Virus record (IMG/VR): IMGVR_UViG_3300008997_000086
Coordinates: 1-40,416 of that record
DNA from: a virus
Reading direction: 5' to 3' (one strand)
Length of the DNA: 40,416 bases
Part shown: one piece after another, positions 16,169 through 19,730 of the stretch
Layout: each line of letters begins with the position of its first letter
How positions within the stretch are numbered: position 1 is the first letter of the stretch
Position numbers and translations under genes: made by a program
The notes under the pieces: model-generated
The model's input: the letters and a program-made list of their open reading frames with translations, nothing else
Told to the model about the DNA's origin: nothing
The model's database searches: none

Positions 16169-16594
16169 CTATAAAGAATTTTGAAAAAGATTTAAAGCTT
16201 CTCTTTTATCTCTTACTTCAATTCCATTAACTTGAAAACTTTTGCGTCCTGAATTATATAGAATATGTGGTATCTCTTTACCAATCATTATTCTATTATC
16301 CATATTTTTTTGTGGTGTAACCACTCTTAAATTAGATAAATTAGCATTTTCTCTATTTCTATCAATATGGTCTACTACCATTCCATTAGGTATCTCACCA
16401 TAAAAGGTTTCTGCAACTAATCTATGAACTGATTCTGTTAGTTGTACACCTTTTTCTAATCTTAGATTTAATCTTGGATATCCACATCTATCTAATCGAG
16501 TTCTCATAACTCGTTTAGTTTTAATATTACGCACATTTCCTCTATCAGAAATTTCATATCGTTTAAATTTTGGATGTTGTTTGTATGTTTCCAT
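16169..16594 (-). CDS. HNH homing endonuclease
   Basis: This 141-residue protein starts at METYKQ. A longer reading from 16633 would run through the gp23 terminator and is less likely. An N-terminal NUMOD4-like segment (FKRYEISDRGNVRNIKTKRV) is followed by the HNH core: VHRLVAETFYG, then VVDHIDRNRENANLSNLRVV with the central DH and the N...N pattern, and TPQKNMDN. Such free-standing enzymes cut DNA and spread into phages lacking them. It sits between the major capsid gene and the neck genes, a typical homing position next to a conserved gene. No good ribosome binding site is seen, and the TATAAATATA motif lies four bases before the start. Confidence 0.88.
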   Translation of the reverse strand: METYKQHPKFKRYEISDRGNVRNIKTKRVMRTRLDRCGYPRLNLRLEKGVQLTESVHRLVAETFYGEIPNGMVVDHIDRNRENANLSNLRVVTPQKNMDNRIMIGKEIPHILYNSGRKSFQVNGIEVRDKREALNLFQNSL

Positions 16595-16597
16595 ACA

Positions 16598-16607
16598 TAT
16601 AAATATA
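16598..16607 (-). promoter_or_regulatory. TATAAATATA motif abutting HNH gene start
   Basis: The motif lies four bases before the chosen start and after the gp23 terminator. If it marks a transcription start, the HNH message would be leaderless or start further downstream. Confidence 0.3.
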
Positions 16608-16616
16608 ACATAGTAC

Positions 16617-16650
16617 AAAAAAAGGGTAACCAAATAAATGATTACCCCTT
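16617..16650 (-). terminator. Rho-independent terminator after major capsid gene
   Basis: The minus strand has GGGTAA pairing with TTACCC (16642-16647 with 16624-16629) across a 12-base loop, followed by seven T residues. It lies about 35 bases after the gp23 stop codon. A-rich sequence on the far side means it could also act on plus-strand transcripts. Confidence 0.8.
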
Positions 16651-16682: not shown

Positions 16683-18293
16683 TTAAACGTAATTAACATC
16701 AGCAACGATAACTTTACCATAGAACTCAGGTCTTACGATTTTCTTCGCATAACGAGTCATAACACCTTTTCTTGGCGTAAAGTTTGTTGGGTCATAGACC
16801 AACGGAGTCATGATAAGTGGTACATACGGAGCGTATACAGCACCAGTTTCTAAGAAATTACTTCCTCTGAAACCAACAAGTATTACGTTCTCGTGCATGT
16901 ATGGATTCTTGTAGACCGTAAAACGGTTGTTCAATAGTCCAACTTTTTGAACACCCATTGCGAATGAACTATTAGCAGCATTACCATCTGAATCAGATGC
17001 ATATCCAGGGATAGACTCAATGATAGTAGCAACTTCAGGACTTACGACCATAAAGTTAGCTCCACCACGTAGAGTCTTCTGATGAATAGCATTAGATACA
17101 GCTTGTATCTTATTACCGAGAGTCTGGAACCAAGTTCCTTTTACATAAGCTGATGCATTAGCAGATGATTCTGCGAAAAGAGCGGTAGAAGAATTATACT
17201 CATATCCTACTCTAGCAGACCAACGTTCTGTTTTAGCATTAGCATTACCCATCAACATATCAAGGATTTCCAAATCAATTTCCATTGAAATGTACTCAGA
17301 TAACATTGCAGTTAACTCAGCTTCTGCGTCAACAGAATGATAAGCGTTAAGGTCTTGAGCTAACTCAGGAGTCCATACAGCTTTCAATTTACGAGTTTTT
17401 GCAACAATCGGAATAGATTTCATTTGGATATCTATTTCTGGAATACCAATATCCGTTGCTGGTTCGGTTGGTGAAGAATCTTCAAAATCACCACGAGTAA
17501 CATCGGTTGGTGCTTTGTGATACTTCACATAGATATTTCCATCAACTTCGTACGCACCAGAAGTCTTTACAACAAAGTTCCAGTTTGAACCATCCCAACT
17601 TGAGTAAGCAGGATAGTAGTCAGCGATAGCCGCGGTTGATGAACCAGAAATTTCAAAAGCTCTAACGCCATCGAAATCTGGATTTGTCATACCATCGTCC
17701 GCAAGAGCGACAGTAACTTTTCTCAGGTTATCAAGAGAAGAACTCAAAGATGGTTCGAAATCAACATCACCCCATACAACAGAAGCTGAACTATAGCTTG
17801 TTATTGTTGCAACAGATTCGTTGATTGAATATCCAAATTTACCTGCCCCATATAGACCACCAGAAGCGTCAGCATCAGAACCAGAAGTGTTACCATGAAC
17901 ATCTGAGTTTTGAGTGTGACCTGGTTGTGCGGTACCATATTTGAAATCAAGGTAAAAAATAAGTCCTGAAGGAAGGTTCATTGGCTGAACAGATACGAAA
18001 TCTTGTGCAGCTAATTCACCAAAAATCCTACGTACCAAAGGAAGAGCAACACCACTCCACTCTTCAGAGTTAGCAGTTGTGCTTGTTTTAGAAGACTCAT
18101 CAATTAACTGACGAGCTTGGTTTTCCAAAAGAGTAGCCATACTCATGACTTTAGTTTCGGAATCTATTCCTTCGAGTAATCCAGTGGGCTCCCACTTTCC
18201 TACTAACTTACGAGTTTCCTCTAACCGTTCCTGATATGGATTATAGCCATCCATAAGGCCTTCAATAGATTTTAAATTACTATTTTTAGACAT
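16683..18293 (-). CDS. 23: Major capsid protein (T4 gp23-like)
   Basis: This 536-residue protein (T4 gp23 has 521) forms the hexamers of the head. The first 66 residues look like the pro-peptide, ending LIDE|SS at E66|S67, which fits the gp21 rule [L/I]-x-E|[A/G/S] and falls almost where T4 gp23 is cut (E65). The mature part begins just before EEWSGVALPLVRRIFGEL, a hallmark of the family, and ends in PLVYDPTNFTPRKGVMTRYA and PEFYGKVIVAD. The gene has an AGGAGA site, follows the gp22 scaffold gene and ends in a strong terminator. Expression should be very high in late infection. Confidence 0.97.
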   Translation of the reverse strand: MSKNSNLKSIEGLMDGYNPYQERLEETRKLVGKWEPTGLLEGIDSETKVMSMATLLENQARQLIDESSKTSTTANSEEWSGVALPLVRRIFGELAAQDFVSVQPMNLPSGLIFYLDFKYGTAQPGHTQNSDVHGNTSGSDADASGGLYGAGKFGYSINESVATITSYSSASVVWGDVDFEPSLSSSLDNLRKVTVALADDGMTNPDFDGVRAFEISGSSTAAIADYYPAYSSWDGSNWNFVVKTSGAYEVDGNIYVKYHKAPTDVTRGDFEDSSPTEPATDIGIPEIDIQMKSIPIVAKTRKLKAVWTPELAQDLNAYHSVDAEAELTAMLSEYISMEIDLEILDMLMGNANAKTERWSARVGYEYNSSTALFAESSANASAYVKGTWFQTLGNKIQAVSNAIHQKTLRGGANFMVVSPEVATIIESIPGYASDSDGNAANSSFAMGVQKVGLLNNRFTVYKNPYMHENVILVGFRGSNFLETGAVYAPYVPLIMTPLVYDPTNFTPRKGVMTRYAKKIVRPEFYGKVIVADVNYV

Positions 18294-18317: not shown

Positions 18318-19367
18318 TTAAAGAATTTTAGCTAGTTTCTGAAATCTGTTCTTCAACTCAGAACCTTCAGCCAAAACTTCTTTAGTTTCGGTTTTAGGTT
18401 TTGTAGAAGCAACAGCTTTAGAAGCTGAACCTTTGTTCTCATTTACAGATTTTTTAGCAGAAGAACCAAACGATTCAGCTATAGTTGAAAATACCAACTT
18501 AACTTCACGTAGATTCTTTGCTCTATCAAACTGCTCAATGACTTTAATTTTCTGTTCATTAGTCATAGAATGATTCCTGAACAACTTGTTAGTAAACAAG
18601 AGTTTAGCATTGAGTAGATTGACCTCATTTAATTTAGACCGTAGATACTTAACTACTTCGCGATGTTCTCCAAGTTCAGATTTAAGTTGAGTAATTTCAT
18701 CCACTTCTTCTTCCTCTTCTTCCTCTTCTTCTTGTAGAGCTTTCAACACTTCTTCAAGGTCAAGTTCCTCTTCCATATCCTCTTCACCCTCTTCATCAGC
18801 TGGTGCTTCGGCATCTAAATCTAAATCACCTTCATCATTAGCAGGTTCAGGCATGAACTCAGAATCATCAGCAGCGATGTCAACTGGTGCATCACCAAGG
18901 TCAACTTCGTCTTCTTCTTCAGGTGAAGCGAATTCATCTTCCTCTTCCTCTTCAGTCAGGTCTGATTCTAATTCTCTCAGAACTGCTTCAAGGTCAAGGT
19001 CGTCATCTTCTTCATCACCTGCTTCTTCTTCATCACCTTCTTCAGCTTCTGGTTCTTCTTCGGCTTCTTCAGCTTCTTCTTCACCAGCTTCTTCAGCTTC
19101 TTCTTCTGCACCTTCTTCAGCATCTATTTCAGCTTCATCTTCTACAGCGTCTTCAGCTTCTGCTTCTTCTTCTTCAGCTTCTTCGTCTTCTTCATCATAA
19201 AATTCATCATCTTCTAATTCGTCTTCGACTTCATTCTGAATCTTTTGTGAAAGCATTTGATTTAGTCTTGGAGTAAAGGCTTCTTGTAAAGCTACTTTGG
19301 CGTTTTCCAACGCGGTCTCACGAACTGCTTTTGCATCTGCGATTGCATTTTTCAAAAGGTCGTCCAT
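18318..19367 (-). CDS. 22: Prohead core scaffold protein (T4 gp22-like)
   Basis: This 349-residue protein forms the internal scaffold removed by the protease before DNA packaging. Residues about 50-220 are extremely acidic, with long Glu/Asp runs and almost no hydrophobic residues. The N-terminus is helical and ends in LQE|AFTPRL, with a predicted cut at E29|A30. The C-terminal third is the conserved part: a helix with LLNAKLLFTNKLFRNHSMTN and EQKIKVIEQFDRAKNLREVK. Both ends are typical of marine gp22 homologues. The acidic block is longer than in T4 gp22 (269 residues), probably by repeat growth of GAA/GAT codons. A TTTGGAG site precedes the start, and an unusual hairpin-rich leader lies upstream. 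Confidence 0.9.
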   Translation of the reverse strand: MDDLLKNAIADAKAVRETALENAKVALQEAFTPRLNQMLSQKIQNEVEDELEDDEFYDEEDEEAEEEEAEAEDAVEDEAEIDAEEGAEEEAEEAGEEEAEEAEEEPEAEEGDEEEAGDEEDDDLDLEAVLRELESDLTEEEEEDEFASPEEEDEVDLGDAPVDIAADDSEFMPEPANDEGDLDLDAEAPADEEGEEDMEEELDLEEVLKALQEEEEEEEEEVDEITQLKSELGEHREVVKYLRSKLNEVNLLNAKLLFTNKLFRNHSMTNEQKIKVIEQFDRAKNLREVKLVFSTIAESFGSSAKKSVNENKGSASKAVASTKPKTETKEVLAEGSELKNRFQKLAKIL

Positions 19368-19392
19368 TTTAATTCTCCAAATTAAAGGATTC

Positions 19393-19472
19393 TATTGTTA
19401 TTTAGGAACAATAATACTGAACTATCTTCAGTACACCATATCAGGACTTACCAGGCATGGTAAAATGGTGTA
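19393..19472 (-). other. Hairpin-rich leader upstream of scaffold gene
   Basis: Four perfect inverted repeats fill 80 bases. Arms on the plus strand are TACACCAT/ATGGTGTA (19432-19439 with 19465-19472), enclosing TTACCA/TGGTAA (19448-19453 with 19458-19463, loop GGCA); then TACTGAA/TTCAGTA (19415-19421 with 19427-19433); then TATTGTT/AACAATA (19393-19399 with 19407-19413). None is followed by a proper T run. If transcription starts at the motif at 19484-19493, all stems fall in the gp22 leader. A regulatory RNA or protein-binding operator is plausible; the function is unknown. Confidence 0.6.
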
Positions 19473-19483
19473 TTTGATTTTTA

Positions 19484-19493
19484 TATAAATATC
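19484..19493 (-). promoter_or_regulatory. TATAAATATC motif before structured leader of gp22
   Basis: An exact copy 117 bases before the gp22 start and just before the hairpin cluster, about 30 bases after the bS21 stop. This is the largest spacing among the motif copies, because the structured leader lies between motif and gene. Confidence 0.4.
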
Positions 19494-19523
19494 AGCTAAA
19501 AAAGTAAAACGTTCAAACCCCCT

Positions 19524-19730
19524 TCAGGTTTTTTCCCGTTCCATTCTTAACTTATCATATTTAATTCTAAGTTTTGCCTTAGATTTTTTGAGTCTTTTTA
19601 TATGAGAAGGCTTCTTATAGAACTCCCTTTCTCTCAATTCGAGTAATAACCCAGACTCTTTTACTTTTTTCTTAAACTTTCGTAGAGCGAACTCTATCTT
19701 ATTATCTCTTACATCTACCTTTATTGCCAT
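19524..19730 (-). CDS. rpsU: Ribosomal protein bS21 homologue (phage-encoded)
   Basis: This 68-residue basic protein matches small-subunit ribosomal protein bS21 along its whole length: IEFALRKFKKKVKESGLLLE (bacterial form: [20 protein letters not shown]), REREFYKKPSHIKR (RRREFYEKPT.ERK) and a Lys/Arg-rich C-terminal helix. bS21 sits near the 3' end of 16S rRNA, by the anti-Shine-Dalgarno sequence, and helps start translation. It exchanges readily on ribosomes, and bS21 is among the ribosomal proteins most often found in tailed-phage genomes, including Pelagibacter phages. Placement just before the scaffold and capsid genes suggests late expression and a bias toward phage messages; that role is inferred. 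Confidence 0.92.
   Translation of the reverse strand: MAIKVDVRDNKIEFALRKFKKKVKESGLLLELREREFYKKPSHIKRLKKSKAKLRIKYDKLRMEREKT

Follow-up and report, generated by a model that had tools for sequence, protein, structure and literature searches.

Comparative evidence for a two-hairpin RNA leader, a candidate translational operator, at the capsid operon of an aquatic phage group

Introduction

The coat-protein operator hairpin of MS2-type RNA phages lies at the replicase start and has a known ligand. In phages T4 and RB69, an mRNA hairpin with the conserved loop UAAC controls DNA polymerase (gene 43) and is bound by gp43, and the leader of T4 gene 32 forms a pseudoknot operator bound by gp32 (PMC3014915). 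A different strategy is used in Flavobacterium, where rpsU is autoregulated by ribosomes lacking bS21 and a single mRNA is set apart by its Shine-Dalgarno (SD) sequence (PMC9976891). Phages can also encode bS21 near their capsid genes, as described by Chen et al. 2022 (PMC9723584), who take the view that the phage protein still blocks the anti-SD.

Here we describe the spacer between a bS21 gene and the capsid operon in a viral DNA stretch of 40,416 nucleotides (IMG/VR record IMGVR_UViG_3300008997_000086), referred to below as the window. Like the MS2-type operator, this spacer has a hairpin near a translation start in which stem pairs can change and loop letters do not, but it belongs to a dsDNA phage and a capsid operon, and its ligand is putative. 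It shares with the gene 43 operator a hairpin upstream of a start codon, conserved loop letters, and a presumed link to the ribosome-binding site; in contrast to that single UAAC hairpin, it has two hairpins, an AAU|A loop, and a putative ligand, and it always stands at the gene preceding that for the major capsid protein rather than at a DNA polymerase gene. As with the gene 32 operator, we are dealing with a structured phage mRNA leader that may govern translation initiation, as its counterpart does in T4, but a non-exhaustive look at the leader found no pseudoknot. The parallel to Flavobacterium rpsU is SD-dependent control, here presumptive, of one mRNA where most lack SDs, with bS21 nearby. 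Unlike rpsU, which has an extended SD before bS21 and no hairpins, the window bS21 gene has no SD, and the leader also occurs without phage bS21.

The leader is apparently an uncatalogued RNA element. No Rfam 15 family reached its gathering score in the window, and leaders from seven loci gave no match at E values up to 1. We found no published description in the open-access literature, where absence is no proof of novelty, and a term search of Chen et al. 2022 (PMC9723584) brought up no mention of it. No catalogue entry for a structured RNA at the capsid operon came to light for these phages, a large aquatic group for which about 185 distinct leaders are now available.

Results

The minus strand is the coding strand for all genes at this locus, and the order of transcription is bS21 (19524..19730; PF01165), a 156-nt spacer, the gene in the scaffold (gp22) position (18318..19367), and the major capsid gene gp23 (16683..18293; PF07068, E value of 1.7e-76). 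The gp22-position gene is named by position only; its acidic product has no match in Pfam or PHROG, and it lies directly before gp23. Because the genes are on the minus strand, the relevant RNA is that of the minus strand, and a plus-strand reading was ruled out, as genes and promoter motif both lie on the minus strand. Directly after the capsid gene is a minus-strand gene for an HNH endonuclease with a NUMOD4 motif (16169-16633; PF13392, E value of 7.4e-19; PF07463, E value of 7.9e-9), likely a homing endonuclease; a TATATTTATA motif of its own precedes this gene.

By capsid protein, the closest records are Microcystis phage Mel-JY01, Flavobacterium phage immuto, and an uncultured 484-kb phage (54 to 57% identity). 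The H3 motif described below was also found in two GTDB assemblies, one of them a Flavobacteriales MAG in which the contig carries the same phage genes. Given these nearest phage records and the MAG contig, phages of this large group probably infect Bacteroidota, although the host assignment is not certain.

Four perfect stems of 6 to 8 bp, one of them nested, had been noted in the spacer in a preliminary description, and all four are present. In mRNA order, the first is the outer stem of hairpin H1 (19432..19472), in which TACACCAT at 19432-19439 pairs with 19465-19472 (8 bp). Nested within it is an inner stem (19448..19463; TTACCA at 19448-19453 with 19458-19463, 6 bp). It is followed by the TACTGAA stem (19415..19433; 19415-19421 with 19427-19433, 7 bp) and by hairpin H3 (19393..19413; TATTGTT at 19393-19399 with 19407-19413, 7 bp), which has the mRNA loop CCTAAAT. 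The outer H1 and TACTGAA stems do share positions 19432-19433, as described earlier, but the competition that this overlap had suggested is a peculiarity of the window, since the TACTGAA stem is not conserved. That stem is missing from the nearest relatives (L010 and L012) and was ruled out as a conserved part of the structure.

The earlier view that these stems are not terminators agrees with our scans, which found no terminator-like site on the coding strand of the leader and no G+C-rich stem with a U run behind it, the mark of an intrinsic terminator or attenuator. One weak terminator-like match (19312-19328, plus strand) lies within the coding region, outside the leader. The folding energy of the full 156-nt spacer was not unusual relative to chance (z of -0.76 on the minus strand and -1.13 on the plus strand), whereas the segment from the start of H1 to the UCC described below was unusual (z of about -3.1 in the window and a mean of -3.3 over 30 homologues). 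The decisive support for the outer H1 stem and H3 as predicted RNA structures is comparative evidence.

Searches of IMG/VR with bS21 and gp23 yielded 144 loci with 79 distinct leaders, and the capsid proteins of immuto and Mel-JY01, used as queries, added 160 loci and 106 distinct leaders. In total, about 185 distinct homologous leaders in four groups were assembled from IMG/VR and phage records. They have a common layout: a TATTTATA-like motif, 8 to 15 nt, H1, 16 to 23 nt, H3 (about 20 nt), a UCC usually 5 nt farther on, an SD where one is present, and the start codon (AUG) of the gene that precedes the major capsid gene. H1 and H3 are the two hairpins conserved across the family, and H1 often has a nested inner stem. 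Five leaders (L076, L088, L097, L104, and L114) have insertions of 40 to 80 nt between UCC and SD, some with extra hairpins, and their H3-UCC spacing is unchanged. Relatives with the same genes and unrelated, unstructured spacers, a pattern that the preliminary description had set against a conserved structure, were not seen within this phage group. The leader was ruled out in classical T4-like phages, in which the spacer before the scaffold gene is too short (about 30 nt in phage T6 and about 48 nt in cyanophage S-IOM18).

Covariation was measured in alignments made by sequence only, with the structure imposed afterwards and three clades aligned independently; the leader counts that follow are inflated by relatedness within clades. 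Among 56 leaders of the window clade, 98.5% of cells were paired and 9/15 pairs had two-sided changes, for a score of 0.359 versus 0.126 in shuffled alignments. The outer H1 stem in these leaders had 97.1% of cells paired and two-sided changes in six of its eight pairs, and H3 was 100% paired. The immuto clade (24 leaders) had 97.3% of cells paired, two-sided changes in 11/14 pairs, and a score of 0.575 versus 0.223 shuffled. For the third clade (50 leaders), the values were 89.7%, 12/14 pairs, and 0.459 versus 0.190; its H3 was 100% paired, and its H1 only 78.6%, with misalignment visible.

The test across clades was restricted to H3 because a joint alignment of H1 over all clades mis-registers. 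In 79 diverse leaders, all 474 of 474 H3 cells were standard pairs and all 6 pairs covaried (score of 0.714 versus 0.194 shuffled), and control versions with slid partners scored at most 0.153. On the sense strand, the H3 cells included nine G-U combinations and not one A-C, the bias that pairing at the mRNA level would produce. Of 40 window-clade leaders in which the H1 loop is long, 35 had an inner stem of at least 4 bp (13.8 expected by shuffling); this stem is missing in some sub-clades. The compensatory changes that were to be looked for in homologous leaders of related phages are thus present in both H1 and H3, as expected of a conserved cis-regulatory RNA leader. From this comparison, we regard it as very nearly certain that the leader is a conserved RNA structure kept by natural selection.

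In almost all leaders, AAU forms the end of the H3 loop and A is the first letter of the 3' arm, while the stem letters vary widely; loop detection required AATA, and the sequence-only alignments give the same loop. Such constancy of the loop above a stem that is free to vary is what we would expect of a protein-binding hairpin. Two or more separate hairpins with an H3-type loop occur in 24/73 leaders of the third clade and never in shuffled versions. In some third-clade leaders (e.g., L239, L243, and L263), the same loop is found on H1 and H3 (NNNAAU closed by U-A), making them two copies of one hairpin type. The two same-loop hairpins may be two protein sites.

A covariance model found one strong copy of the element per contig, in every case at the gene preceding the major capsid gene; second matches were weak, at chance level only, and further copies were rejected. 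An exact-pattern scan of IMG/VR that was independent of protein searches gave 80 readable matches, and all 78 that could be assessed led to the conserved start of the gp22-position gene, on the same strand and 14 to 87 nt farther on. Such constant association with one same-strand downstream gene is characteristic of conserved cis-regulatory RNA leaders.

Upstream of H1 in the window is a late-promoter-like motif, GATATTTATA (19484..19493, minus strand), which reads differently from the T4 late-promoter consensus TATAAATA. The TATTTATA motif has 13 sites on the coding strand of the window versus 2 on the other strand, and 159 versus 24 in related loci, which partly overlap. The 13 minus-strand sites of the window include 802, 3735, 11630, 19491, and 36059. 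The motif stands 8 to 15 nt before H1 in 56/56 leaders, and its distance to the start codon is 30 to 50 nt at several other genes and about 126 nt at the gp22-position gene. Judged by its placement and strand bias, it is probably a phage late promoter. The earlier proposal that the promoter-like motif and the gp22-position gene are separated by a compact, structured leader RNA is borne out.

The gp22-position gene of the window has the SD GGAG (19375..19378, minus strand), and a UCC able to pair with it lies at 19387..19389 (pairing probability of about 0.5). UCC was found between H3 and the SD in 117/142 SD-bearing leaders, versus 18.9 expected by shuffling, in a tally that mis-windows a few leaders. 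Leaders of the immuto clade have no SD, and only 3/20 of them have UCC. One sub-clade without UCC (L014 and L019-L034) has CUC or CCUC instead, likewise complementary to its own SD. The leader of Mel-JY01 is also among the SD-bearing ones that have no UCC. That UCC is kept with the SD and mostly absent without it points to SD sequestration. The pairing comprises 3 to 5 bp only and is about half formed in the window; being weak, it would need help, e.g., from a protein bound to H3. H1 and H3 persist in clades that have no SD, so the hairpins must serve some further purpose for which SD masking is not needed.

The bS21 gene lies directly upstream in 74/79 window-clade leaders. It is nonetheless a neighbor of the leader rather than a required part: the immuto genome has no recognizable bS21 gene, bS21 is absent from the fetched stretches of its clade, and both hairpins are intact and covarying there. 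This rules out dependence of the leader on phage bS21, and the link to the nearby bS21 gene that had been suggested earlier does not hold for such phages.

SD use at other genes was tallied over loci L001-L309, as the SD core before ORFs of at least 130 amino acids except gp22, with starts assigned by longest ORF, kinship ignored, and bS21 absence judged on short stretches. With bS21, the SD core was found at 266/384 ORFs in the window clade and 95/135 in the third clade; at loci without bS21, it was found at 17/159 in the third clade and 3/95 in the immuto clade. A fourth, small clade without bS21 had a loose SD core at 11/31 and a 5-base SD at 2/42. By these counts, SD use appears to track phage bS21: bS21-encoding phages of the group use SDs, and those without it mostly do not. 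This pattern sits uneasily with the anti-SD blocking argued for by Chen et al. 2022 (PMC9723584). Where third-clade loci lack bS21 (e.g., L193-L225), the gp22-position gene has the SD core in 28/36 cases versus 17/159 for other ORFs, and the SD that it keeps resembles the exceptional SD of host rpsU.

Discussion

Three roles were offered for this spacer in the preliminary description, namely, translational operator, stability element, and small RNA, and the conserved UCC near the SD favors the first. On present evidence, the spacer is rather more probably than otherwise a cis-acting translational operator at the 5' end of the scaffold/capsid mRNA, with translational control as its chief role. 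A phage late promoter would start the mRNA at a predicted site a few nucleotides before H1, which would cap the 5' end; about 20 nt after H1, H3 would present its conserved loop with AAU at the end, and in most clades the short UCC able to pair with the SD comes next. A putative RNA-binding protein of phage or host would probably recognize H3, and perhaps H1, and could either shift the UCC:SD pairing or block ribosome access. The state of infection would thereby presumably determine how strongly the capsid operon is translated.

We speculate that the two-hairpin RNA belongs to a so far undescribed family of translational operators in phages, in which a putative protein reads the RNA and ribosome access to the capsid operon is gated, within a strategy by which bS21-encoding Bacteroidota phages remodel host ribosomes for SD use on late mRNAs; this wider reading is tentative, and we consider it rather doubtful.

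Alternatively, the leader could be mainly an mRNA stability element, in which 5'-terminal H1 together with H3 prevents 5'-end-dependent decay and thereby prolongs the life of the structural message in greatest demand. The position of H1 near the predicted 5' end at fixed spacing, the much shorter leaders at other promoter sites in the window, and the retention of both hairpins in SD-less clades are consistent with this idea. Stability alone leaves unexplained the invariant H3 loop, the fixed H1-H3 spacing, and the SD-linked UCC, and we judge it unlikely as the main role, although it may be an additional function of the leader. If the leader were instead processed or terminated into a separate trans-acting small RNA, its compact, stable, and promoter-proximal structure would be accounted for, but no terminator-like site was found in it, conservation continues through the UCC toward the SD, and it is always attached to the same gene; such an origin seems very improbable.

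A further alternative is an operator specific to bS21, with the phage or host protein binding the leader and coupling ribosome state to capsid synthesis. This fits the frequent upstream position of bS21 in the window clade, the way in which SD use tracks bS21 in the phage group, and the regulation by Flavobacterium bS21 of its own SD-bearing mRNA (PMC9976891). Against it stand immuto and its clade, in which the hairpins persist and covary with no bS21 detected in the genome or in the fetched stretches, respectively; an operator specific to bS21 is therefore quite improbable, with host bS21 a possible partner. Least plausible of all is action as DNA, through protein-binding sites or cruciforms, although perfect inverted repeats read identically on both DNA strands. 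The letters of the stems are free to change while pairing is kept, unlike those of a DNA operator, the G-U cells of H3 are not matched by A-C cells, and placement is fixed between promoter motif and start codon, so that we find this explanation hardly credible.

If the leader is an operator, head-protein synthesis in a dsDNA phage group would be under posttranscriptional control. One carrier of the leader, Flavobacterium phage immuto, is an isolate whose host strain is named (Flavobacterium sp. LMO8), which makes the function testable. SD use tied to phage bS21 would, in turn, allow a direct test of why phages carry bS21.

A hairpin in Rhodothermus phage RM378 (L149, 1760-1860) gives no match to the covariance model and is possibly a distant relative of the leader. 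It follows an AT-rich motif and precedes the gene before the capsid gene, and a sigma-factor gene lies nearby.
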